Source: Verrucomicrobiaceae bacterium (lineage in GTDB: Bacteria > Verrucomicrobiota > Verrucomicrobiia > Verrucomicrobiales > Verrucomicrobiaceae). Taken from it: a stretch of DNA of 64,000 nucleotides. Positions 46,198 to 60,220 of the stretch are shown here, piece by piece. Where the stretch lies: positions 1-64,000 of the forward strand of contig JAIXZA010000009.1 in the NCBI GenBank assembly GCA_027489965.1. Reading direction: 5' to 3'. Both the position numbers and the translations under genes were made by a program. Positions within the stretch are counted from its first letter, which is position 1. Each line of letters starts with the position of its first letter. The notes below the pieces were generated by a model, which saw only the letters and a list, made by a program, of their open reading frames with translations, had not been told where the DNA came from and did no database searches.

Positions 46198-47295
46198 ATG
46201 AAAACAGCCACCAACCCCATCCCAAAGCGCACCTCTTTAGCAGTGGATGCAGCGATATGTCTGCGAGAGTGCATGCACCGTGGAGATTGGGCAAAGTATT
46301 TGCCAGGGGAGATGAGCCTTGCGCGGGATCTTCAAGTCGGACGAAATACGGTTCGTGCGGCGTTAGCAATTTTAGAGAAGGAGGGCTTAATTCATACGGT
46401 CATGGGTCGGAGGCGGGAGTTGATTGGACCAGTGAAGATGGCGGAAGCCCCCTTGAAAAAGGTTGCGGTGATATTGATGCCAGCGCCATGGCACACGCTG
46501 GCTCCCTCCACCTTGCTTTGGATGGATGCGTTACGGTCCATATTAACCAGTGCTGGATGGCATTTGCAGATGGCGGTTGATGCATCTGCATTTCGCCGAA
46601 CTCCAACTGGCGCGCTAGATTCATTATTGGCTCAGCATCCAGCTACCGTGTGGATCCTTTTTAGATCCACTAAGGCAATGCAAAGTTGGTTTGAGAAGCA
46701 GGAAGTTTCCACCGTGGTGGCAGGCTCTTGCCATGCTGGCGTTAGACTTCCGCAGATCGATACTGACTTTCGAGCGACTTCACGTCATGCAGCAGCGCGG
46801 TTCTTGGGTTTGGGGCATCGCCATTTGGCAGTTTTAGCTCCTGCGGTGTCCTTCGCCGGCGATGACGAAAGTCTTGCGGGGTTTCGGGAAGGTGCGGGTA
46901 ATGCAAACTTTAAGGTACATCTTTGCCATGATTCGAAGATCAGCGTGATCAAGACCCTGCGAACCCTCTTGTCCGCCACACAACGTCCCACGGCACTCTT
47001 TGTACTCCAAGCCGGTCATGCGGCGACCGCGCTGACGTATCTGTCTCAGCAGGGCGTGCATGTGCCTGCGCAGATGTCGCTCCTATCACGTGATCATGAG
47101 CCTTTCCTCACGCACCTCGTACCTGAACTTGCCCGATACGAGCGCCAGCCGGAATTTTTCGCCAAGAAGCTTGCCCATCTCGTCACTGCGCTTGGAGATA
47201 ACGCGCCACCCAAGAAAGTGCAGCAACTACTCATGCCTACTTTTGTGCGCGGCGAGACATTGGGAACAGCACCTGTTCTCAAAAAGAACAGGTAG
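46198..47295 (+). CDS. GntR-type DNA-binding / LacI-like sensor transcriptional regulator
   Basis: 365 residues. An N-terminal winged helix of the GntR type (LPGEMSLARDLQVGRNTVRAAL, EKEGLIHTVMGRR) is joined to a C-terminal periplasmic-binding-protein-like sensor as in LacI/GalR proteins (KKVAVILMP, LLAQHPATVWILF, VVAGSC, GLGHRHLAVLAP, PTALFVLQ). Such proteins repress sugar-use genes until the sugar binds. It is upstream of the nanA-like, RraA-like and sialidase genes, all in the same direction, so it probably controls them and possibly the divergent DUF1080 gene. Confidence 0.88.
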   Translation: MKTATNPIPKRTSLAVDAAICLRECMHRGDWAKYLPGEMSLARDLQVGRNTVRAALAILEKEGLIHTVMGRRRELIGPVKMAEAPLKKVAVILMPAPWHTLAPSTLLWMDALRSILTSAGWHLQMAVDASAFRRTPTGALDSLLAQHPATVWILFRSTKAMQSWFEKQEVSTVVAGSCHAGVRLPQIDTDFRATSRHAAARFLGLGHRHLAVLAPAVSFAGDDESLAGFREGAGNANFKVHLCHDSKISVIKTLRTLLSATQRPTALFVLQAGHAATALTYLSQQGVHVPAQMSLLSRDHEPFLTHLVPELARYERQPEFFAKKLAHLVTALGDNAPPKKVQQLLMPTFVRGETLGTAPVLKKNR

Positions 47296-47342: not shown

Positions 47343-48260
47343 ATGACTACAAACCGCATCCAAGGCCTCGTCGCCGCCACCCACACGCCGTTTCACGCAG
47401 ACGGATCACTCAATCTCGCCATCGTCGAAAAGCAGGCGGAGCATTTGCAGACAACTGGCGTTAGCCATGCTTTTATTGGAGGCACGACAGGTGAGTGCAG
47501 TTCGCTCACACTGGAAGAGCGGCGGGCGCTCTCGATGCGGTGGTTTGAAGTCACACGTGGAGCCGCGCTCAAGGTCATCGTGCATGTTGGCTCAAACTGC
47601 CTCGCTGACTCGCGCAACCTAGCAGCACAGGCGCAGGAACTCGACGCGGCGGCGGTCGGTGCGCTGGCACCTTCGTATTTCAAACCGGGCAATATCGCCA
47701 CTCTGGTCGAGAGCATGGCACAGATCGCATCGGCCTCGCCGGAACTGCCGTTCTACTACTACGAAATTCCGACGATGACGGGCATCTCCCTGTCTCCGTC
47801 TGAGTTCTTGGCTCAAGCAGCCGATCGGATCCCGAACCTCGCAGGCATCAAGTTCACCAGCAGCAATCTGATGGAGTATCAGCTCTGCCGTACCTCGCAT
47901 GAGGGACGGTTCGACATCCCGTTCGGCTTTGATGAGATGATGCTGGGGGCTCTAGCTCTCGGAGCCACCGGGGCAGTCGGAAGCTCATTCAATTTTGCCG
48001 CCCCGATCTATAATCGCCTCATCGCCGCATTCCAACGTGGCGATCTCATCGCGGCACGCGAAGAGCAGATGCGATCGGTCCGCACGATTCAAAAGCTAGC
48101 GGCACGCGGCTACATGGGCGCGGCAAAGGCGACCATGACGATGCTCGGTGTCGATGTTGGTCCACCGCGATTGCCTTGTATGGCCCTAGATTCGAATCAA
48201 ACCAAGGCCCTGCATTCAGAGCTGGAGCAAATCGGTTTCTTTGAATGGGTCAAACCTTAA
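47343..48260 (+). CDS. nanA: N-acetylneuraminate-lyase-like aldolase (DHDPS superfamily)
   Basis: 305 residues. TIM barrel of the dihydrodipicolinate synthase family. FIGGTTGECSSLT, YYYEIPTMTG and the Schiff-base lysine in AGIKFTSSNLMEY fit N-acetylneuraminate lyase (the KxT pattern) better than lysine-biosynthesis enzymes. The reaction would cleave sialic acid to N-acetylmannosamine and pyruvate. The presence of two sialidase-family genes supports this, but nanE and nanK are not in the window. A related keto-deoxy sugar aldolase is an alternative. Confidence 0.82.
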   Translation: MTTNRIQGLVAATHTPFHADGSLNLAIVEKQAEHLQTTGVSHAFIGGTTGECSSLTLEERRALSMRWFEVTRGAALKVIVHVGSNCLADSRNLAAQAQELDAAAVGALAPSYFKPGNIATLVESMAQIASASPELPFYYYEIPTMTGISLSPSEFLAQAADRIPNLAGIKFTSSNLMEYQLCRTSHEGRFDIPFGFDEMMLGALALGATGAVGSSFNFAAPIYNRLIAAFQRGDLIAAREEQMRSVRTIQKLAARGYMGAAKATMTMLGVDVGPPRLPCMALDSNQTKALHSELEQIGFFEWVKP

Positions 48261-48272
48261 CCATTACAGACC

Positions 48273-49016
48273 ATGCTACCCCACTCAGACCTCCTTCAAC
48301 TCAAACGCTGGAATACGCCCACCATCTACAATGGCTGGGAACAGATCACCAAGCTTGATCCCGCTGCTGATGCCTTCAATCTCGAAGAAACCCGCGATTT
48401 CATGCCGCAGATGGGACCGATGGTGGGTTATGCAGTCACCGTCGTCATCGAGCCAAGCAACAAGGCGCACCGCGAGGCCGATGCGAATGCTTGGAGTGAG
48501 TACCGCCGCTACGTGGCCAGTATTCCAGGGCCGAAGATCGTCTGTGTTCAGGATCTCGATAAACCACGCACGATTGGTTCCTTTTGGGGTGAGGTGAACA
48601 GCAACATGCATCGTGCTCTTGGCTGCGTCGGCACCATCGTTGATGGCGCGATTCGCGATGTCGATGAAATGACCAATGCGGGCTTTAAGGCCCTAGCTCG
48701 TCGTTTCTGCGTCGGTCATGCGCATGTGCATCCGGTGCGTTGGAATTGCGAAGTGGAGGTTTTTGGCCGTAAGGTAAGCCCAGGAGATCTCATTCATGCA
48801 GACAAGCATGGATTCATCGTCATCGAACCGGAAGCACAGCCGCATATTCTGCAAGCCGCACGTTTCATGGATGCCAATGAATGCCAAACAGTCATCCCTG
48901 CTGCACGAGACAGTTCTGGTCTTAGCACGGATCAAATCCTCGCCAATCTGGCCGAAGCGGGCGCTCAGTTCGGCAAAAACGCTAAAGTTCAATTTCAACG
49001 GCAAGGAGAATGGTAA
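48273..49016 (+). CDS. RraA-like / HMG-aldolase-family protein
   Basis: 247 residues. Contains FWGEVNSNMHRALGCVGTIVDGAIRDVDEM, where the glycine-rich turn and the Arg-Asp pair of RraA-like proteins bind a metal and 2-oxo acid. Members include HMG/CHA aldolases and oxaloacetate decarboxylases, and the RNase E inhibitor RraA. The nanA-like neighbour suggests a pyruvate-releasing aldolase in sugar-acid metabolism (inference). It begins 12 bases after the nanA-like gene, and GGAG just before its stop serves the next gene. Confidence 0.85.
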   Translation: MLPHSDLLQLKRWNTPTIYNGWEQITKLDPAADAFNLEETRDFMPQMGPMVGYAVTVVIEPSNKAHREADANAWSEYRRYVASIPGPKIVCVQDLDKPRTIGSFWGEVNSNMHRALGCVGTIVDGAIRDVDEMTNAGFKALARRFCVGHAHVHPVRWNCEVEVFGRKVSPGDLIHADKHGFIVIEPEAQPHILQAARFMDANECQTVIPAARDSSGLSTDQILANLAEAGAQFGKNAKVQFQRQGEW

Positions 49017-49018
49017 TC

Positions 49019-50221
49019 ATGAAGCAGATCTCATTCCTCATCATCATTCTCAGTGGCCTACTAAGTGCCGCTGAGCCGTTCATCAACAAACAAGACCTCT
49101 TCATCGTTGGCGAAAATCCCGCCTACAGTCTCTACCACATCCCCGGTGTCGTCGTGACGGCCAAAGGCACCGTGTTGACTTGGTGCGAGGCCCGCAAGCG
49201 CGCGGCAGGTGTCAGCGATTGGGATGACATTCGCATTTTACTCCGCCGCAGCACCGATGATGGCAAGACATGGAGCGCCCCAAAAAGCATCGCGAACGTG
49301 GAAGGCCAGAAGGCCAAGAACCCCTTGGCCCTCAAGATGAAGAACGTCGATCCCAATGACGTGACCTACAACAACCCCGTTCTCATTGCTGACAAAGACG
49401 GCACCGTCCACATGCTCTTCTGCCTGGAATACGAACGCGTTTTTTATCAGCACAGCGATGATGATGGACTTACTTTTAGCCAGCCCACCGAGATCACCAA
49501 CGCGTTTGAAGACTTCAAAAAAGACTACGACTGGAAAGTGCTAGCAACAGGCCCGAACCACAGCATCCAGCTCAAAACGGGGCGTCTCGTCGTACCCGTC
49601 TGGCTTTCCACTGGCACAGGCGGCAACGCGCATCGACCCAGCGTTACGGCCACTATTTACAGCGATAATCAAGGCAAGACTTGGCACGCGGGCCACATCG
49701 CTGTACCCTGCACCGACGAATGGATCAATCCGAATGAAACCGTCGCCATCGAGCTCAATGATGGCCGCGTCCTGCTTAATGTGCGCAGTGAATCGAAAGT
49801 ACATCGCCGCCTCGTGGTGACCAGCCCCGATGGTGCGATGAAATGGAGTACGCCGAAATTCGACGACGCGTTGCTTGAACCTATCTGCATGGGCGGCATC
49901 GTTCGCTACAATCACGATGGCAAGAGCCTCATCCTCTTTTCCAACCCGCACAATCTGGAAAAGGCCAAAGGTAAGGCAGAGCCTGGTAAAAATCGAGATC
50001 GCAAGAACGTCAGCGTTAAGATCAGCCGTGATGAAGCTCAAACCTGGCCGGTCAACAAACTCATCGAAGACGGCCCCAGCATGTACTCCGACATAGCCGT
50101 GACACCCAAAGGCACAATCCTTTGCTTCTACGGTCGCAGTGGCGACAGCCAAGGCGTCGCCGCTTTTGCCGGAGGACGGCTAACGCTAGCACGGTTTAAC
50201 TTGGAGTGGCTGGAGCAGTAG
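49019..50221 (+). CDS. Secreted sialidase-family protein with altered binding residues
   Basis: 400 residues from ATG 49019 (AAGGAG at 49003 gives good spacing; ATG 49010 is too close to it). Signal peptide, then a six-bladed propeller with Asp-box repeats (STDDGKTW, DDGLTF, SDNQGKTW). The catalytic Asp (SDWDDIRI), Glu (NPNETVAIEL), Tyr (SMYSDIAV) and the second and third triad arginines seem present. But the first triad arginine is replaced: the RIP motif reads HIP (His40). The C-terminal Glu that supports that arginine is also lost (FYG, Gly372). It probably has another ligand than sialic acid. Paralog of the sialidase at 59045. Confidence 0.88.
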   Translation: MKQISFLIIILSGLLSAAEPFINKQDLFIVGENPAYSLYHIPGVVVTAKGTVLTWCEARKRAAGVSDWDDIRILLRRSTDDGKTWSAPKSIANVEGQKAKNPLALKMKNVDPNDVTYNNPVLIADKDGTVHMLFCLEYERVFYQHSDDDGLTFSQPTEITNAFEDFKKDYDWKVLATGPNHSIQLKTGRLVVPVWLSTGTGGNAHRPSVTATIYSDNQGKTWHAGHIAVPCTDEWINPNETVAIELNDGRVLLNVRSESKVHRRLVVTSPDGAMKWSTPKFDDALLEPICMGGIVRYNHDGKSLILFSNPHNLEKAKGKAEPGKNRDRKNVSVKISRDEAQTWPVNKLIEDGPSMYSDIAVTPKGTILCFYGRSGDSQGVAAFAGGRLTLARFNLEWLEQ

Positions 50222-50264: not shown

Positions 50265-51644
50265 TTAATTCCCGCCGCCCATGGCTTTGTGGATGCGGAC
50301 CCAGGCGGCGGTGGCGCGGGTGCGGCTAAGCACGATGTCGTTTTGGGCGCTAAGAGCGACGCGTTCGGCGTCGAGGAAGGTGAGGAAGTCGGCGATACCG
50401 TCTTGATAGCTTTGTCTTGCCAAGGTGGCTGCTTCACGGGCGCTGGCGGCGCTGGCTTCGAGGTGACGGAGGCGCTGGCGCTCGCGGTCGTAGCTGGTGA
50501 GTGCGTTTTCGACTTCTTCGAGGGCAAGGAGCACCGTTTGCTCATAGGTCGAGAGCGCGGCATCGGCGCGATGTCCGGCAGCTTTGATCTGCTGCCGCAC
50601 ACGACCAAGGTTCAGGAAAGCCCAACTGATGCGCGGACCAAAGTTATAAGCATTCGAGCCATATTGGCTGAGGCTTGCGAGACTTTGGCCTTCGAGGTTG
50701 AGACGCCCGCCGAATGTAACTCGCGGAAACAAGTCGGCGGTGGCGATGCCGACTTGGGCAGTGGCGGCAGCGAGGGCGTTTTCGGCGATGCGGATGTCGG
50801 GGCGGAGACGGAGCAACTCAGCGGGTTTGGCAATGGCGATGCTGGCGGGCACAGCGGGCTGTTTGAGAGCTTTTTGGAGCTGTGAGCGCAGTTCGGAGGG
50901 ATTGCGACCGCAGAGCACAGCGATGCGATGGATCGCTTTGGCGACACTTTCTTCGTAAGTGGGGATTTGGGCCTGTGTAGCATTCAAGAGAGCGTTGGCA
51001 CGGGCGACGTCGAGCTGCGTGCCTCGTCCGCCTTTGAGCGAAGCTTCGGCGATACGCAGGGCTTCGGATTGATTGCCGGCGTTTTCTTGCGCGACATTGA
51101 GTTGAGCCTGGGCACCGCGAAGTTCGAGATAGTTGATAGTGACCTCGGCCTGGAGCGTGATGAGCATATCCTGCACGTTGGCCTCAGCAGCAGCGCTGGT
51201 GGCTTTGGCGGCCTTCACGGAACTCCGCACGCGTCCAAAAAGGTCGAGTTCGTAATCAGCATCAAAGCCAGTGCGCCAGGTTTCGACAGTGCGACCGCGG
51301 AAGGCGGCATTCATAGAGCTACCAAGAAAGGCCGTGTCATAAGTGCCGCTGGCGGTGACGGTTGGCGCGAAGTCGAACTGCGCCTCGCGCCACAAAGCAC
51401 GGGCCTCAAGCAGTCTCGATTTGGCGACGGCGAGGTCTTTATTTTGCTCGGTGGCTTGTGTGATGAGGTTGTTCAGCGTGCTGTCGTTGAGCCTGCGCCA
51501 CCAAGTCGAGGAAACAGCTGTGGCGTTGGACGATTTGGAAGCGTAGTCCACAGGCATCTTCGGCTGCGGCTTGAGGAACTTGGGGCCGACGGTGCAGCTG
51601 GATAGCAAGCAAAGAACCAGCGGAAGTATTTTAGTGAGCTGCAT
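50265..51644 (-). CDS. RND efflux outer-membrane lipoprotein (NodT/OprM family)
   Basis: 459 residues. Lipobox LLSSC. The mature protein begins TVGPKFLKPQPKMPVDYA and repeats long helical hairpins (ALWREAQFDFAPTVTASGTYD, AQVGIATADLFPRVTFGGRL), typical of TolC-like trimeric channels. It forms the outer-membrane exit of the efflux pump. Last gene of the operon; its start overlaps the permease gene by 14 bases. Confidence 0.95.
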   Translation of the reverse strand: MQLTKILPLVLCLLSSCTVGPKFLKPQPKMPVDYASKSSNATAVSSTWWRRLNDSTLNNLITQATEQNKDLAVAKSRLLEARALWREAQFDFAPTVTASGTYDTAFLGSSMNAAFRGRTVETWRTGFDADYELDLFGRVRSSVKAAKATSAAAEANVQDMLITLQAEVTINYLELRGAQAQLNVAQENAGNQSEALRIAEASLKGGRGTQLDVARANALLNATQAQIPTYEESVAKAIHRIAVLCGRNPSELRSQLQKALKQPAVPASIAIAKPAELLRLRPDIRIAENALAAATAQVGIATADLFPRVTFGGRLNLEGQSLASLSQYGSNAYNFGPRISWAFLNLGRVRQQIKAAGHRADAALSTYEQTVLLALEEVENALTSYDRERQRLRHLEASAASAREAATLARQSYQDGIADFLTFLDAERVALSAQNDIVLSRTRATAAWVRIHKAMGGGN

Positions 51645-54600
51645 GGACGATAGAAGGCAGAGCTTTGGCCTGTCGACGTTCGACGATGGCGCGGAGAATG
51701 ACGTAGAAGACAGGCGTGAAGAGCAGGCCGAAGATCGTAACGCCGATCATGCCGTAGAACACGGCAGTTCCAAGGGCCTGGCGCATCTCGGCTCCAGCGC
51801 CGGTGGCGAGGACGAGCGGGAGCACACCGAGGATGAAGGCGAAGCTGGTCATCAAAATGGGTCGCAAACGCAGGCGGCTGGCTTCGACAGCGGCTTTCAC
51901 GCGATCCATGCCGTCGTCCTGAAGCTGCTTGGCGAATTCGACAATGAGGATGGCGTTCTTCGCGGCGAGACCGACGAGCACGACGAGTCCGATCTGCGTG
52001 AAGATGTTGTTGTCGAGCCCGCGCAGCCACACGCCGCCGATGGCGGAGAGGAGGCACATGGGAACGATGAGGATGATGGCGATGGGCATGCTCCAGCTTT
52101 CATACTGCGCGGAGAGCACGAGGAAAACGAAGATGACGCACAGCGGGAAAATGTACATCAACGTGTCTCCGGCGAGGATCTGCTGGTAGGTGAGATCCGT
52201 CCACTCAATGGCGAATCCGGCGGGCAGGTGCTCCTTGGCGAGGCGCTCGATCTTTTCGATCATCTGACTGGAGCTGATGCCGGGCAGCGTGTTGCCATTG
52301 ATGTCGGCGGAGTAGTAGAGGTTATAGCGCTGCACGCGATCGGCACCGCCGGTCTTGATGACTTTGACAAGGGCTCCCAGCGGCACCATGCCGCCGTTTT
52401 GATTGCGGATCTTGATGCGGGAGACGTCGGCGGGGTCTTTGCGGAATTCGTGATCGGCCTGCGCAGTGACCTGGTAGGTGCGACCGAACAAATTGAAGTC
52501 GTTCACATAGACGGAGCCGAGATAGACCTGCAGCGCCTCATTTAAATCAGCGAGCGAGACGCCCATGGTTTTCGCCTGAGCGCGGTTGATTTCGAGTTTG
52601 AACTGCGGTGTTCGGGCGCGGAAGCCGGTGACGAGTGAGATGAAACCCGGCTCGTTTTGCGCAGCTGCAAGGAGCTTCTGCGTGGCAGCTTCGAGGGCGT
52701 CGAGTCCGGCATTGTTAAGGTCCTGCACCTGGATTTTGAAGCCACCGGCATTGCCGAGACCACGCAGCGGTGGTGGTGGCAACACGAGCACGCGACCTTC
52801 TTGAATGGTGGCGAATTTTTCGCGAATGCTGGCGAGCAAACGATCTCCCTTCATTTCTGGCGAGGTGCGTTTCGCGAAGTCATCGAAGACGAGGAAGGCC
52901 GCGCCGACGTTGGGCTGGTTCGCCTGCAAAACGGAGCTGTAACCGGAGATGGCGAAGGTGTGCGCGATGCCGGGGATCTGCTGCGCCATGCGGTCCATCT
53001 TGCGCACGACGGCGTCGGTGCGATCAAAGGCCGACGCGTCTGGTAGTTGCACGAGCACGATGGCATAACCCATGTCCTGCGAGGGGATGTAGCCGCCGGG
53101 CACAGTATTGAAGACCTTTTGCGTGAGGAAGAGTAGCCCGACGTAGCCAAGGATCACGAACAGCGCGAGGCGGATGAGTTTGCGCACGAGCCCAGCGTAG
53201 AGGCTAGAGCTGAAGTCGAAGACCTTGTTAAAAAGTCGAAAGAACCAGCCGAAGATGAAATTGATGAGCTTCGTGAGCCAGTCGGTCTTCGCTCCGTGTG
53301 GTTGCAGCAGGATGGCGCAGAGAGCAGGGCTAAGAGTAAGCGAATTGAAGGCCGAGATGACCGTGGAGACAGCGATGGTGAGCGCGAACTGTTTATAAAA
53401 TTGACCGGTGATGCCGCTGACAAAAGCGGTCGGCACAAACACGGCGCAAAGCACGAGCGCGACCGCGATAACAGCCCCGCTCACCTCCTTCATGGCCTGG
53501 ATGGCGGCCTCACGCGGTGCGAGACCTTTGGCAATGTTTCGCTCGACGTTTTCGACCACCACGATGGCGTCATCGACGACGATGCCGATGGCGAGCACGA
53601 GGCCGAAAAGGCTCAGATTGTTCAACGAGAAGCCGAAGGCCTGCATGACTGCGAGCGTGCCAATGAGCGACACCGGAACAGCGAGCAGCGGGATGATGGA
53701 GGCACGCCAGCTTTGCAGGAACAGGATGACGACGAAGACGACGAGCAGCAAGGCCTCGACAAGTGTGGTGAGCACGGATTTGATCGAGGCGCGGACGAAC
53801 TTGGTGGTGTCGTAATTGATGCGGTAGTCGATGCCGGGCGGGAAGCGCTCCTTGAGCTGCGCAAGGCGTGCATACACAGCGTCGGCGGTCTTGATGGCGT
53901 TGCTGCCGGGGAGCTGGAACACGCGCAGCGAGACGGCGTTGTAACCGTCCATGTAGGTCTTGCTGGAGTAGTCGCGGGAGCCGAGTTCGATGCGTGCGAC
54001 ATCGCGCAGGCGCACGACATCGCCGATGGTGCCGGTTTTAAGGACGATATCACCAAACTCTTCCGCTTTCTTCAAACGGCCCGGCGCGGTGAGCGTGTAT
54101 TGAAACTCCAAACCTTTTGCCGCTGGCGGCTGGCCAAGTGATCCGGCGGCAACTTGCACATTTTGTTCGCGAATGGCGCGCACGACATCCCCGGCAGTGA
54201 GTCCGACTCCGGCGACTTTTTCGGGATCGAGCCACACACGCATCGAATAGTCGAGTCCTCCGAGTGAGGACGCCTCGGCGACGCCAGGAAGACGGGCGAT
54301 TTCATTCTGAATCTGAAGCGTGACATAGTTGCTGAGGTAGCCGACCTCGCGGGAGCCATCCGGGCTGTAAAACTGCGCGGCGAGCGTGAGGTCGGGAGAG
54401 CGTTTATTCACGATGACGCCGAGACGACGCACCTCCTCCGGCAAACGTGCCACAGCGGCGTTCACGCGGTTTTGCACGAGCACCTGCGCCTTGTCCAAAT
54501 CCGTGCCGAGACGAAAGGTGACAGTGATTTGCACACGGCCATCGCTCGTCGATGACGACGAGAGGTAGATCATGTCCTCCACGCCATTGATCTCCTGCTC

Positions 54601-54801
54601 CAGAGGCGTCGAGACGGTCTCGGCGAGCGTGCGGGCATCGGCGCCTGGATAGGTAGCGGAAACGACGACGGTGGGCGGGATGACCTCAGGATACTGCGCG
54701 ACGGGCAACGAAAAGTAGGCCAGAGCGCCGAGCAACGTGATGACGATGCTCAGCACCGCCGCGAAGATCGGGCGGTCCACGAAGATGCGGGCGAAGTTCA
54801 T
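51631..54801 (-). CDS. RND multidrug efflux permease (AcrB/MexB type, HAE-1)
   Basis: 1056 residues. Inner-membrane proton-driven exporter. Begins MNFARIFVDRPIFAAVLSIV. The proton-relay aspartates are in GIVVDDAIVVVENVERN (about residues 406-407). The porter domain (GVAEASSLGG, GSNAIKTADAVYARL) and the repeated membrane halves are complete, with no frameshift visible. It takes amphipathic compounds from the periplasm. Start overlaps the adaptor stop as ATGA. Long open frames on the opposite strand are composition shadows. Confidence 0.97.
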   Translation of the reverse strand: MNFARIFVDRPIFAAVLSIVITLLGALAYFSLPVAQYPEVIPPTVVVSATYPGADARTLAETVSTPLEQEINGVEDMIYLSSSSTSDGRVQITVTFRLGTDLDKAQVLVQNRVNAAVARLPEEVRRLGVIVNKRSPDLTLAAQFYSPDGSREVGYLSNYVTLQIQNEIARLPGVAEASSLGGLDYSMRVWLDPEKVAGVGLTAGDVVRAIREQNVQVAAGSLGQPPAAKGLEFQYTLTAPGRLKKAEEFGDIVLKTGTIGDVVRLRDVARIELGSRDYSSKTYMDGYNAVSLRVFQLPGSNAIKTADAVYARLAQLKERFPPGIDYRINYDTTKFVRASIKSVLTTLVEALLLVVFVVILFLQSWRASIIPLLAVPVSLIGTLAVMQAFGFSLNNLSLFGLVLAIGIVVDDAIVVVENVERNIAKGLAPREAAIQAMKEVSGAVIAVALVLCAVFVPTAFVSGITGQFYKQFALTIAVSTVISAFNSLTLSPALCAILLQPHGAKTDWLTKLINFIFGWFFRLFNKVFDFSSSLYAGLVRKLIRLALFVILGYVGLLFLTQKVFNTVPGGYIPSQDMGYAIVLVQLPDASAFDRTDAVVRKMDRMAQQIPGIAHTFAISGYSSVLQANQPNVGAAFLVFDDFAKRTSPEMKGDRLLASIREKFATIQEGRVLVLPPPPLRGLGNAGGFKIQVQDLNNAGLDALEAATQKLLAAAQNEPGFISLVTGFRARTPQFKLEINRAQAKTMGVSLADLNEALQVYLGSVYVNDFNLFGRTYQVTAQADHEFRKDPADVSRIKIRNQNGGMVPLGALVKVIKTGGADRVQRYNLYYSADINGNTLPGISSSQMIEKIERLAKEHLPAGFAIEWTDLTYQQILAGDTLMYIFPLCVIFVFLVLSAQYESWSMPIAIILIVPMCLLSAIGGVWLRGLDNNIFTQIGLVVLVGLAAKNAILIVEFAKQLQDDGMDRVKAAVEASRLRLRPILMTSFAFILGVLPLVLATGAGAEMRQALGTAVFYGMIGVTIFGLLFTPVFYVILRAIVERRQAKALPSIVHAAH

Positions 54802-55985
54802 GGCTGCTTGTCCTTCGCGGGTTGAGTGAGCGCCATATCAGTGAGCGCTGGCTTCACTTGGTTGCCATTCCGCACGCTCATGAGACCGAGAATGACAACG
54901 CGTTCATCGGCCTTCAATCCATCACGCACAACGCGTAGACCATCGACGAGCGGGCCGAGCTTGATGGGGCGATACACGGCCTTGTCCTCCGCATCGATCA
55001 CCCAAACGTAGCTGCTACCTTGATCATCACCGACGGCGGCATCACGGATGAGCAGGCCGTCGTATTCTCCGCTGCCGGGGATGCGCACTTTGGCAAAGAA
55101 GCCGGGCGACATGAGACGGTCTTTGTTGGGAAAAAGGCCGCGTGCGCGAATGGTGCCGGTCTCGGGGTTGATTTGATTATCCACGAAGTCGATCTCGCCT
55201 TTGTGCGGCCAGCCTTCCTGGTTCACGAGCGCCATTTCCGCTGGGATGCGCTGGAAGAGCGCACTCTCGCGTTCGCCCGATTTGTGCATCTCGCGGTATT
55301 TGAGCGCAGAACGCTCATCGACCTCAATGTCGCAATAGATCGGGTCAAGCTCGACGATGGTGGTAAGCAAGGTTGCATCTCTAGTGCCACCAGTGACTAG
55401 ATTGCCTTCCGTTACTCGCGCATCGCTGATACGGCCACTGATCGGCGCACGAATCTGAGCGAATTCGAGATCGAGCTTTGCTGAGCTGACCATGGCCTCA
55501 GCTGCGCGTACGGCGGCCTGCTCACCAATTGCGCTTTTAAAACGGCGTTCGGATTCCTCGGTCGAAATGACCTGCCCCTGACGCAGCATGGTGGCGTTCT
55601 TTGCCTCGATATTCGCAAGATCAGCGTTCGTTTTCGCCTGTGCCAGCACGGCCTCGGCACGCTGCACGATGGCCTCGTAGGGACGCGGGTCGATGGTGAA
55701 AAGCAGATCGCCTTCCTTCACCTCCGTACCTTCTTTGAAATGCACCTTGGTGAGGTAGCCGGACACACGGGCGCGGATTTCGACTTTCTCACGGGCGATG
55801 AGACGACCGGTGAACTCGTCCCAGTCGGTGAGTCGTCTGGCGATGGGTTTGGCGACGGTGACATCCGGCATTCCAGCCTTCGGCGGACCTGCGGGGCCTT
55901 TGGCGATGGGTTTGCATCCGGAAACAACGAGCGCCACCGCTAACAAAGGCATGGCGTAGCGCGAAAAGCGAGAAAGAGGACTCAT
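54798..55985 (-). CDS. RND efflux periplasmic adaptor lipoprotein (AcrA/MexE type)
   Basis: 395 residues from ATG 55985. Lipobox VVSGC. The barrel-sandwich hybrid and coiled-coil hairpin are visible: REKVEIRARVSGYLTKVHFKEG, VKEGDLLFTIDPRPYEAIVQRAEAVL, QIRAPISGRISDARVTEGNLV. It links the permease to the channel. It is the first gene of the three-gene efflux operon; a LysR-type remnant lies upstream in the opposite direction, 69 bases away. Confidence 0.94.
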   Translation of the reverse strand: MSPLSRFSRYAMPLLAVALVVSGCKPIAKGPAGPPKAGMPDVTVAKPIARRLTDWDEFTGRLIAREKVEIRARVSGYLTKVHFKEGTEVKEGDLLFTIDPRPYEAIVQRAEAVLAQAKTNADLANIEAKNATMLRQGQVISTEESERRFKSAIGEQAAVRAAEAMVSSAKLDLEFAQIRAPISGRISDARVTEGNLVTGGTRDATLLTTIVELDPIYCDIEVDERSALKYREMHKSGERESALFQRIPAEMALVNQEGWPHKGEIDFVDNQINPETGTIRARGLFPNKDRLMSPGFFAKVRIPGSGEYDGLLIRDAAVGDDQGSSYVWVIDAEDKAVYRPIKLGPLVDGLRVVRDGLKADERVVILGLMSVRNGNQVKPALTDMALTQPAKDKQP

Positions 55986-56054
55986 GAGGTTAAATACGGG
56001 CCAAGAGGCCACTTCAACAGTACAGATTCAACATAGCGCTTATACACTTGCTGC

Positions 56055-56301: not shown

Positions 56302-57870
56302 ATGAACCGCCGCCACTTCATTGCACTCACCGCCGCCGCGCCGCTTGCGACAGCGGAACCACGTCGCAAAGCGCCCTTCCGTGTGATCTACAGCAACGAC
56401 CTCACAAACATCACTTCGTGCGTGAGTCCCTTTCACGCCGCACGCGAACCGTTTCGGCCGGAAATGCTCGATGCTACCGTCGATGAAGTCACGGGCTTAG
56501 TGGACGCACACTTTTTGCAGCCTGGTCTTGGTGTGGTGCCGATGTGGCCGAGCAGGGTGATCGATCTGAAGCAGCACTTCGCGTGGATCAAACAGCGCTA
56601 CGGGCAGAAGCCGGATTCGTTCAGCCAATTTGTTCTGAACGGCGGTGACATCGTGCAGCGCTTCATCGAACGCTGCCGCGCGAAGGGTCAGGCGGCCTTC
56701 ATCTCGCTGCGGATGAACGACGCGCATCACAAGGAATTCGTCGACCCAAAACTGGGAGACAAACCGGGCAGCAGCATCGGGATGAGTGTCACTCGCTGGT
56801 ATGCCGAACATCCCGAGCATCGCATCAAACCAGGCTCGCTGCGCGGTGCGGACCTCGTTTTGAACTGGGCGGAGCCGGAAGTGCGGGCACAGAAGCTCGC
56901 GATGCTCCGCGAGCTGTGTGAGAACTACAACCTGGACGGCCTCGAACTCGATTTCCTGCGCTTCTACAGCTACTTCCGCCCCGAAACACCACTGGAGCAA
57001 CGCCGCGCCATCATGACGAACTTTGTCCATGACGTGCGAAAACTTCTCGGGCCAAAAAAATGGCTCTGCGCCCGTGTGCCGTGCTATTTCACCGCTTTGG
57101 ACGAACTCGGCCTCGACTTGAAAGCACTCGTTGCCGCCGGTCTCGACATGGTGAACGCCTCCGCGCATTATTTCACGACCCAGCAGCACGACCTCGCCGC
57201 TATTCGCCAATTGACGACCGATGCCACGCTCTACTTCGAGCTCTGTCACACAATTTGGAAAGGCGACAAAGTGCAGCCCGGTTACGACGTCTTTCCCTTC
57301 CGTCGCGCCACCCGCGAGCATCTGCACACCTCCGCGCATCTCGCCTATGCACGCGGCGCGGACGGCATCAGCCTCTTCAACTTCGCCTACTACCGCCAGC
57401 ACGGTCAGGGAGAAGGCCGCGGCGAATTCGGCGAGCCGCCATTTGAGGCGCTCAATGCGCTGCGTGATCCGCAAATCCTCGCAAAAAGCCCGCAGCACTG
57501 GTTCATCGCGAGTGGTTGGAGATCCCCCGGTGCGAAGCCGTTGCCCGTGCCGAGAAAACTGGAACTGAACAAGCCTGCGAAGTTCAACTTCGATCTCGCA
57601 TCGCCTCGTGGTGATGCCCGCGTGCGCATTCAGACAGATCAGACAGATCAGACAGATCTAGTGGCTGACTTCAACGGCGAAGCCATTTCCCCAACCGATG
57701 ATGTCTCCGAGCCATTCGCCGTGCCTTATCCATCCATGCTCGCCAAACCCGAAGAACTGCGTGCGTGGCTCATTCCGTCCCGGTTGCTCCGCGAAGGCAA
57801 AAACAGCCTCGAAGTCACATTGAAGTCGGGCCAGCCCACGACCGTTCTATTCGTCGATCTCGCCTGCTGA
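56302..57870 (+). CDS. Secreted glycoside-hydrolase-like protein (TIM-barrel)
   Basis: 522 residues. Signal MNRRHFIALTAAAPLA with two arginines, Tat-like. The body reads as a TIM barrel with the strand DGLELDFLRFYSYFRPE (two acidic residues) and AYARGADGISLFNFAYYR near the end; this is similar to glycoside hydrolase-like domains of the GHL10/DUF group. A three-copy 9-bp repeat (57631-57657) inserts QTDQTDQTD in the C-terminal region. Located between the efflux operon and a second set of secreted enzymes. Substrate unknown. Confidence 0.8.
   Translation: MNRRHFIALTAAAPLATAEPRRKAPFRVIYSNDLTNITSCVSPFHAAREPFRPEMLDATVDEVTGLVDAHFLQPGLGVVPMWPSRVIDLKQHFAWIKQRYGQKPDSFSQFVLNGGDIVQRFIERCRAKGQAAFISLRMNDAHHKEFVDPKLGDKPGSSIGMSVTRWYAEHPEHRIKPGSLRGADLVLNWAEPEVRAQKLAMLRELCENYNLDGLELDFLRFYSYFRPETPLEQRRAIMTNFVHDVRKLLGPKKWLCARVPCYFTALDELGLDLKALVAAGLDMVNASAHYFTTQQHDLAAIRQLTTDATLYFELCHTIWKGDKVQPGYDVFPFRRATREHLHTSAHLAYARGADGISLFNFAYYRQHGQGEGRGEFGEPPFEALNALRDPQILAKSPQHWFIASGWRSPGAKPLPVPRKLELNKPAKFNFDLASPRGDARVRIQTDQTDQTDLVADFNGEAISPTDDVSEPFAVPYPSMLAKPEELRAWLIPSRLLREGKNSLEVTLKSGQPTTVLFVDLAC
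57631..57657. repeat. Three tandem copies of a 9-bp repeat in a coding region
   Basis: cagacagat occurs three times without mismatch and encodes QTD three times. Copy-number change would keep the reading frame. Confidence 0.85.
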
Positions 57871-57874
57871 TCTC

Positions 57875-59032
57875 ATGAAACGACTCCTCTGCCTACTTCT
57901 AATAGCCACGAGCTTGGCAGCGGCCCCAGACGGTCTGCTTCTTGATCTCGTCGTGCCGCCGATTGAGAAGGATCGCTTCCAACATGCGGAGTTTTCCTGC
58001 TGGATCGCAGATGCGTCAAAGCCTGTCAAAGCAGTCATCATTCATCAGCATGGTTGCACGAATGCCTCGCCGGACAATCATCCGCCCATCACGAGTGACT
58101 GGCATTGGCGAGCGCTGGCGCGAAAACATGACGCGGCACTCCTTGTGCCGATGTATCAAGTGAGCGGCAACTGCTCCGATTGGAACGATCCTGAAAGCGG
58201 CTCCGAACGTGCTTTGTTTACAGCTTTGGATGATTTCTCGCGCCGCTCCGGTCGTGCGGAGATGAAAGACGCGCCGTGGGTGCTGTGGGGACACTCAGGT
58301 GGCTCCAGTTGGTCCGCACAGATGATCACGCGGCACCCGAAACGAGTACTCGCAGCCTCGTTTCGTGGCGGATGTCACAAGCAGTTCGGTAAACCCGAGT
58401 TTCGGGCAAAGTTTGGTCCCATCGCACGCGAGTTACCGCTACTCTTCGTTTGGGGAAAACGCGAGTCGGTGCCCACTTCCAGCCACTTCGTATCATGGGA
58501 GCCGATGAACACGATGTTCCGTGAGTTGCGCAGCATAGGAGGCAAGGTTTGTCGTATCATTGATCCGCGCTCTGAGCATGGTTGCGATGATTCGAGGCTG
58601 ATGAGCATCCCGTTCTTTGATGCTGTGCTTTCAGGCAAAGCCACAACCCAGGCAGTCGTTGATGCAGAGACATCTTGGTTTCCAGACGAGTCGTTTGCAG
58701 CGCACTGGCGCGAGTTTTCCGAGCATGGAACGCTGAAGCCAATCCATCCCGATCTTACTGCGCCGAAACTCACCGTCACGCAGGATTCAATGGGACACAC
58801 CAGACTGAGTTGGTGCGTCATTCCTGAACTCTCGGGTGGCCTACGGGCTCTGCGGTTTTATCGCGATGGAAAGCTTTGGAAAGAACTTGGCCTGAAGCCG
58901 ACTGACTTCCTCGCTACCAGTCGCGACTCGGCGCCTGAAGTTTTGCGGCTTCAGGAGCTCATTGATAATTCACCAGCCCCGCACTCCTACAAACTCACCT
59001 TTCTCGACACAGCAGGTAACGAATCCCCGTAA
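57875..59032 (+). CDS. Secreted alpha/beta-hydrolase
   Basis: 385 residues. Signal peptide MKRLLCLLLIATSLAAA. HQHGCTN is the oxyanion region, WVLWGHSGGSSWSAQMI carries the nucleophile serine, and SEHGC near residue 230 offers the histidine. The C-terminal part is a fibronectin-like beta domain (LRALRFYRDGKLWKE). Sialic acid or polysaccharide de-esterification is possible by its position between secreted glycan enzymes. It starts 4 bases after the preceding gene and ends 12 bases before the sialidase. Confidence 0.82.
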   Translation: MKRLLCLLLIATSLAAAPDGLLLDLVVPPIEKDRFQHAEFSCWIADASKPVKAVIIHQHGCTNASPDNHPPITSDWHWRALARKHDAALLVPMYQVSGNCSDWNDPESGSERALFTALDDFSRRSGRAEMKDAPWVLWGHSGGSSWSAQMITRHPKRVLAASFRGGCHKQFGKPEFRAKFGPIARELPLLFVWGKRESVPTSSHFVSWEPMNTMFRELRSIGGKVCRIIDPRSEHGCDDSRLMSIPFFDAVLSGKATTQAVVDAETSWFPDESFAAHWREFSEHGTLKPIHPDLTAPKLTVTQDSMGHTRLSWCVIPELSGGLRALRFYRDGKLWKELGLKPTDFLATSRDSAPEVLRLQELIDNSPAPHSYKLTFLDTAGNESP

Positions 59033-59044
59033 CATCCCATTCCT

Positions 59045-60220
59045 ATGATCCGCCTCTTCACGTCTTTGCTTCTCTTTTCGCTCTGCGGCAGTCTCGCCGC
59101 CGCAAATCCGCTGTTTGAAAAAACCGATGTCTTTCCGCCAGGATTGAACGGCATCGCCAGGTATCGCATTCCCGGCATCGTCGTGACGCAAAAAGGCACA
59201 GTGCTCGCCTATGCCGAAGCACGGAAGAACAGCAGCTCCGACTGGGGCGAGATTGAGATTCATCTGCGCCGCTCCACCGATGGTGGAAAGACTTGGGAGG
59301 CAGCACAGCACATCGCGCATCTAGGAACACGCTTGGAAGGCAACCCACACAAAAAAGAAGGCGGTGAGAACGAGCAAACCGTGAACAATCCCGTCGCCAT
59401 TGTAGATCGGGAGACAGGAGCCATTGATTTTCTCTACTGCATCAACTATGCTCGCTGCTATTCCATGCGCAGTCTAGATGATGGACTCACGTGGAGCACG
59501 CCGGTGGACATCACGGCGACATTTGAGCCGTTCAGGAAGCACTACGACTGGAAAGTGATCGCCACAGGTCCTGGGCATGGCGTTCAAATCAAAAGTGGCC
59601 GTCTGGTCGTGCCGATCTGGATTGCCTACGGTAAAGAAGGTGATCACGGACCTTCTGCGGCTGCCACGATCTTTAGCGACGATCACGGCAAGACTTGGCA
59701 AGCTGGAGATCTATGCCTGCCAAATCAAGGCGACTTCAGCAATCCCAACGAAACCATGATCACCGAGCTGTCCGATGGCCGCGTGATGCTCGTTGCACGC
59801 AGCGTATCGAAAGCCAATCGAAAGATTGTCACCACCAGTCCTGATGGCGCACGTAACTGGACCGCACCCGCCTTCCATGATCAACTCTGGGAACCCGTCT
59901 GCATGGCTAGCATCATTGCGCATCCATCGAAACCCGGTACTTTGATCTTCTCCAATCCGCACACGCTCAAGCTCGACAAAGATGGCAAAGAAGTTCCCGC
60001 CGGAAGAGGCAAACGCGAGAATCTCAGCATCAAATTAAGCCACGACGACGGTCAAACTTGGCCGGTGAACAAGACGCTCGATGCAGGCCCCAGCGCCTAC
60101 TCTGATCTTGCCGTTCTGCCAGATGGAACCGTGTTGTGTTTGTATGAAGGAAAGGCAGACATCCAAATCGCTCGCTTTAATCTTGAATGGATCGCTGATC
60201 ATCAAACGATTTCACGGTGA
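59045..60220 (+). CDS. Secreted exo-sialidase (GH33-like)
   Basis: 391 residues. Signal peptide MIRLFTSLLLFSLCGSLAA. Sialidase fold with the RIP motif (Arg41 in YRIPGIVV), Asp boxes (STDGGKTW, DDGLTW, SDDHGKTW, HDDGQTW), the catalytic Asp in SDWGEIEI, Glu in NPNETMITEL, Tyr in SAYSDLAV, triad arginines in LVARS and KRENLSI, and Glu368 in LYEG. All residues needed to release sialic acid are visible. Paralog of the protein at 49019, which lacks two of them. Last gene of a three-gene plus-strand group. Confidence 0.92.
   Translation: MIRLFTSLLLFSLCGSLAAANPLFEKTDVFPPGLNGIARYRIPGIVVTQKGTVLAYAEARKNSSSDWGEIEIHLRRSTDGGKTWEAAQHIAHLGTRLEGNPHKKEGGENEQTVNNPVAIVDRETGAIDFLYCINYARCYSMRSLDDGLTWSTPVDITATFEPFRKHYDWKVIATGPGHGVQIKSGRLVVPIWIAYGKEGDHGPSAAATIFSDDHGKTWQAGDLCLPNQGDFSNPNETMITELSDGRVMLVARSVSKANRKIVTTSPDGARNWTAPAFHDQLWEPVCMASIIAHPSKPGTLIFSNPHTLKLDKDGKEVPAGRGKRENLSIKLSHDDGQTWPVNKTLDAGPSAYSDLAVLPDGTVLCLYEGKADIQIARFNLEWIADHQTISR

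Follow-up and report, generated by a model that had tools for sequence, protein, structure and literature searches.

A conserved clade of sialidase-like proteins in Verrucomicrobiota in which the first triad arginine and its glutamate partner are replaced together

Textbooks recognize sialidases by their arginine triad, yet automated annotation is prone to label every propeller of this kind a sialidase. In the stretch of DNA analyzed here (64,000 nt of a contig from a Verrucomicrobiaceae bacterium, hereafter the window), one sialidase-like protein, HIP, reads YHIPG where its canonical paralog in the same window, RIP, reads YRIPG, and it lacks the glutamate that partners the replaced arginine. 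Is this double change real and maintained, and on what sugar might such a protein act? The features that bear on this question are as follows.

46198..47295, + strand: GntR/LacI-type regulator that opens the apparent operon (domain and locus comparison)
47343..48260, + strand: DHDPS-family aldolase, closest to N-acetylneuraminate lyases (NAL; 5afd, 6h4e and human 6arh; alignment)
48273..49016, + strand: RraA-like protein of the aldolase/decarboxylase family, conserved neighbor of HIP (PF03737, 79.9 bits)
49019..50221, + strand: HIP, putatively secreted sialidase-like beta-propeller of 400 aa, His40/Gly372 variant (ORF, domain, alignment, predicted fold)
49136..49138, + strand: His40 codon CAC, position of the first triad arginine (His in 60/60 clade members)
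49217..49219, + strand: Asp67 codon, acid/base aspartate, kept (alignment)
49736..49738, + strand: Glu240 codon, Glu/Tyr nucleophile pair, kept (alignment)
49784..49786, + strand: Arg256 codon, second triad arginine, kept (alignment)
50000..50002, + strand: Arg328 codon, third triad arginine, kept (alignment)
50084..50086, + strand: Tyr356 codon, nucleophile, kept (alignment)
50132..50134, + strand: Gly372 codon GGT, position of the glutamate partner of the first arginine (Gly in 55, Ser in 3, among 58)
59045..60220, + strand: RIP paralog with complete canonical sialidase residues (alignment); adjoins HIP in several relatives

The HIP reading frame runs on the + strand from the ATG at 49019 to the TAG at 50219-50221, with a ribosome-binding-like AAGGAGA about 10 bases 5′ of the start and the stop codon of the rraA-like gene 2 bases before it; a second possible start, the ATG at 49010, nearly overlaps the AAGGAGA. 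The N-terminus, MKQISFLIIILSGLLSAAEPF, reads as signal-peptide-like, and HIP is predicted to be a secreted, sialidase-like protein. Upstream, the window holds, in order, the GntR/LacI regulator, the NAL-like aldolase and the RraA-like protein. Directly downstream, on the opposite strand, lies an RND efflux operon (50265-56012; outer membrane factor, pump and adaptor), an order relative to HIP that is also kept in loci L003 and L010. The two genes upstream of RIP, at 56302-57870 (522 aa) and 57875-59032 (385 aa), gave no Pfam match.

The AF2 model of HIP (mean pLDDT 94.3, with a RIP model of equal quality) is a six-bladed beta-propeller with Asp boxes, and its top full-length structural matches by Foldseek and VIA-align were GH33 sialidases: 1eus, NanA (Z 44.4) and NanI (Z 44.0). 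HIP thus has in common with the GH33 exo-alpha-sialidases of Micromonospora viridifaciens (1eur), C. perfringens (NanI), S. pneumoniae (NanA) and T. forsythia (NanH) the propeller (VIA Z 42-44), the Asp-box motifs, the acid/base aspartate, the Glu/Tyr pair and the second and third arginines, but it differs from them in having histidine for the first triad arginine and Gly/Ser for the partner glutamate, at an identity of only ~25-31%.

Both replacements had been proposed in a preliminary description of the locus, and alignment placed them where that description had put them. In a BLASTP comparison with RIP (59045-60217; 388 columns, 49% identical), YHIPG faces YRIPG and CFYGR faces CLYEG, so that His40 aligns with Arg41 of RIP, and Gly372 with its Glu368; against 1eur, His40 falls on the arginine of YRIP and Gly372 on the glutamate of LLYE. 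The residue numbers originally given were correct, as was the claim that the rest of the active site is retained: Arg59, Asp67, Glu240, Arg256, Arg328 and Tyr356 (HIP numbering) are invariant in all 98 aligned HIP- and RIP-type sequences, and Glu57 of the EAR motif is conserved in >90% of them. HIP therefore keeps two of the three triad arginines and the full Asp and Glu/Tyr set of a retaining hydrolase, with invariant residues at the positions of both the acid/base (Asp67) and the Glu240-activated nucleophile (Tyr356). Despite the GH33 fold and most of the GH33 machinery, we did not file HIP as a sialidase, because the triad is incomplete throughout its clade (His in 60/60) and the glutamate that orients the first arginine is Gly or Ser in 58/58 members.

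To place this pair of residues in a family context, we aligned 109 relatives drawn from named contigs and whole genomes, set one row aside as frameshifted (L102, 12693-13889) and built a tree from the remaining 108. The alignment held His/Gly in 55 rows, His/Ser in three, His with a truncated end in two, Arg/Glu in 46 and Arg with a truncated end in two, and no intermediates among the scored rows; the outgroup was thus uniformly Arg (48/48) and Glu (46/46 scorable). A single branch (SH-aLRT 99; one change) separated the 60 His rows in this tree, which was made by a quick method and has long branches elsewhere. A scan for clade-specific conserved positions returned positions 40 and 372 as the only swaps from one invariant state to another. 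The invariant His at position 40, beside a position 372 that is always small (Gly or Ser), suggests that the histidine does a job and that residue 372 needs to be small. Since both swaps fall on one branch, their order and their statistical independence are beyond judgement, and the coupling of the two sites rests on the single origin of the pair and on its maintenance.

This maintenance is reflected in selection. Comparisons of HIP with six relatives gave dN/dS values of 0.06-0.10, against 0.08-0.09 for the RIP paralog and 0.04-0.12 for the neighboring aldolase genes; HIP is under purifying selection comparable to that on its canonical paralog. Decay and sequencing error are ruled out by the 60 sequences together with these ratios, and the view that the joint loss is a coherent change and not random decay held. 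We also looked for an arginine or glutamate that might take over the vacated places, and none moves in: the arginine that follows FYG varies within the clade (R, S, A, T, K) and was rejected as a swap-in, as was Lys100, which HIP has in common with an arginine-bearing sister clade.

HIP- or RIP-type relatives occur in 64 of the 68 genomes of this Verrucomicrobiota family, HIP itself in ~60 of 68 (judged by identity); HIP is rare in the phylum at large, and a plasmid search yielded only distant relatives (28-31% identity). We found no description of a GH33 clade without the first arginine in the open-access literature. RIP-type proteins, at 49% identity, reside in the same genomes and often adjacent to HIP, and differ in retaining Arg41 and Glu368. 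The sister clade (L043, L046, L050, L051; 60-62% identity to HIP) shares Lys100, Tyr117 and Thr198 among other residues, but it retains Arg and Glu; no RraA gene was found near it, and its neighbors include a GDSL-type hydrolase. Two of its contigs, L043 and L046, are titled Candidatus Kuenenia stuttgartiensis, which looks doubtful, as their sialidase genes are close to those of Planctomyces-titled bins. At L013, L014 and L040 the main HIP gene is followed or preceded in tandem by another copy that has diverged (67% identity) and has Ser at 372. A far more distant parallel comes from a BNR_2 core protein of the source genome (L119; G000:C123:97460-98275; 22% identity), which in one HHalign alignment of a single sequence has His at the first arginine position and Thr at the place of the partner glutamate, with arginines at the second and third positions and the tyrosine kept, but with the Glu base not clearly kept. 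Should that alignment prove right, loss of the pair may have occurred repeatedly. A literature search on BNR_2 function returned nothing useful.

What sugar HIP may act on is indicated mainly by the genes beside it. In the window, the aldolase at 47343-48260 groups with NALs by its closest solved relatives, and its Schiff-base lysine and GTTGE loop align with those of 5afd and 6h4e, at a score below the NCBIfam equivalog cut-off. The protein at 48273-49016 belongs to the RraA/HMG aldolase family: besides its PF03737 match (79.9 bits), it places VDGAIRD opposite VDAGVRD of 3noj and has the aligned Arg-Asp of class II aldolases, although it is only distantly related to characterized RraA proteins. 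Upstream sequence of 4.5 kb or more was available for 35 HIP loci; in 20 of these a gene of aldolase type lay no more than 5 kb away (RraA in 17, NAL-like in six, HpcH/HpaI in three, the last assigned by Pfam and NCBIfam) and 15 had none; the chance expectation is ~0.6-2%, and we rejected chance as the source of this linkage. Across 67 family genomes, HIP and RraA occurred together in 56, HIP alone in three, RraA alone in two and neither in six (Fisher p 2e-5, without correction for kinship).

A NanM-type mutarotase (PF24996 above its cut-off; TIGR03548, the cyclically permuted family, below its own) lies divergently beside HIP in five genomes (G013, G014, G017, G018, G046), and adjoins RraA in four others (G005, G064, G065, G067) and the NAL-like gene in G012. 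Although genes around HIP need not act on its product, the recurrence of aldolase families and of this mutarotase beside it points to a 2-keto-3-deoxy (ulosonic) acid that still has its carboxylate. In L085, L087, L014, L024 and L040, HIP is clustered with HpcH/HpaI-type aldolases and with secreted BNR-like proteins of no assigned family, and in L085 (8636-12565) RraA, a BNR-like protein, HpcH and HIP are all on one strand. At RIP loci, an HpcH-type aldolase was present in two genomes; the frameshifted row mentioned above (L102, 12693-13889, of G018) is a RIP-type gene, disrupted in frame at its start, that adjoins an HpcH-type aldolase.

Gene content also bears on whether the acid is Neu5Ac. 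The AGE epimerase, the expected consumer of ManNAc, was absent from all eight genomes whose NAL-like gene is part of the RraA/HIP operon or adjoins the mutarotase (0/8), and present in 27 of the 30 in which NAL lies elsewhere; in several of the latter, AGE has NAL and a distant sialidase nearby, an arrangement that resembles conventional use of Neu5Ac. The restriction of NAL genes placed with RraA/HIP or the mutarotase to genomes without AGE argues against Neu5Ac/ManNAc, as if the NAL-like gene had been redeployed from Neu5Ac use there. Searches of the 94% complete assembly of the source genome matched neither AGE (PF07221) nor NanE (PF04131), and full Neu5Ac catabolism was rejected for this genome. 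The HIP pathway is probably not one for plain Neu5Ac, judging from gene content in related, and so not independent, genomes.

Taken together, we favor, with only a little more belief than doubt, the reading that HIP is a retaining glycosidase of GH33 fold whose carboxylate site has changed and whose substrate is some ulosonic acid, though not plain Neu5Ac. As in sialidases, Asp67 would donate a proton to the leaving group while Glu240 activates Tyr356 for attack on the anomeric carbon. The tyrosine nucleophile of sialidases has been explained by their charged substrate (PMC4747158), and the invariant tyrosine and two arginines fit an acidic ketoside. The acid group would be held by Arg256, Arg328 and His40, in a pocket that the two smaller residues, His40 and Gly372, may widen; this shape, and the role given to His40, are suggested by residue sizes and conservation. 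The released sugar would be a 2-keto-3-deoxy (ulosonic) acid such as Kdn, Kdo or another non-sialic ulosonate, to be mutarotated, taken up and then cleaved by the NAL-, RraA- or HpcH-type enzyme to pyruvate and a sugar or sugar acid. That RraA proteins can act on keto-deoxy sugar acids has a precedent in FlDet, an enzyme of this family that converts 2-keto-3-deoxy-D-glucarate (PMC8563752).

Other readings explain part of this evidence. The carboxyl of a sialic or ulosonic acid substrate could instead be masked as a lactone, ester or amide, with the smaller His and Gly making room for the masking group; both swaps, at the carboxylate end, do replace a larger residue by a smaller one, the remaining machinery is intact and sialate-type genes adjoin HIP, but both arginines that suit a charged carboxylate remain invariant and no esterase was a conserved HIP neighbor among the loci read, and we consider this reading unlikely. 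We regard as somewhat less likely again the preliminary description's own suggestion of a sugar without a carboxylate. GH93 arabinanases share the fold and act on a neutral sugar. In HIP the carboxylate-binding arginine has gone together with its partner. Mutation at this arginine position in T. forsythia NanH (R212) inactivates the enzyme (PMC9472817). Against it stand the invariance of Arg256 and Arg328 in all HIP clade members and neighbors, pyruvate aldolases and the NanM-type mutarotase, that indicate keto acids. The proposed change of ligand is partly supported: the carboxylate site is altered and the substrate is probably not plain Neu5Ac, but the carboxylate-free sugar found no support.

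The reaction, and not only the ligand, may have changed, as the same description had raised: HIP could eliminate its substrate to a 2,3-ene, form an anhydro sugar by intramolecular transfer, or hydrate either kind of product. Enzymes of sialidase fold are known to run reactions of this type, the PDB matches include anhydrosialidases, and the invariant new histidine is a possible acid or base; the HIP sequence carries no mark of such a reaction, and to our knowledge the known non-hydrolytic enzymes of this fold retain the arginine triad, which makes this improbable. That HIP is still a normal sialidase, if perhaps a weaker one, with His40 substituting for Arg would fit the retained Asp, Glu, Tyr and two arginines and its place beside the canonical paralog in some genomes. 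The inactivity of the NanH R212 mutant makes normal sialidase activity unlikely by analogy, the partner glutamate was lost in step, and RIP and other arginine-bearing sialidases are already present in many of the same genomes; we think this quite improbable. We hold it least probable of all, and very much so, that HIP binds its ligand without catalysis or is a copy in decay. Activity-free proteins of sialidase fold are known: bat influenza N10 and N11 resemble HIP in being sialidase-like with conserved active-site residues lost, and have no sialidase activity (PMC8064322), but they are viral, of another family and changed at other residues, the likeness being one of description. The catalytic residues of HIP are invariant over 60 sequences, its dN/dS is 0.06-0.10, and it is near-universal in the family.

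The HIP clade is real, conserved and coherent. We thus prefer the glycosidase for a non-Neu5Ac ulosonic acid to both the masked carboxyl and the carboxylate-free sugar. More tentatively, and with doubt prevailing, the clade may be one of sialidase-fold enzymes with a substrate new to GH33 (e.g., an ulosonic acid that is non-sialic or modified at its carboxyl), which together with a class II aldolase of RraA type would form a degradation pathway not yet described in Verrucomicrobiota. A fixed, paired loss in a clade near-universal in its family, accompanied by keto-acid aldolases, offers a direct test of how far the carboxylate site controls specificity. It also cautions against counting HIP-type genes in freshwater genomes as sialidases, and makes the HIP clade a lead to an unknown acidic-sugar pathway.
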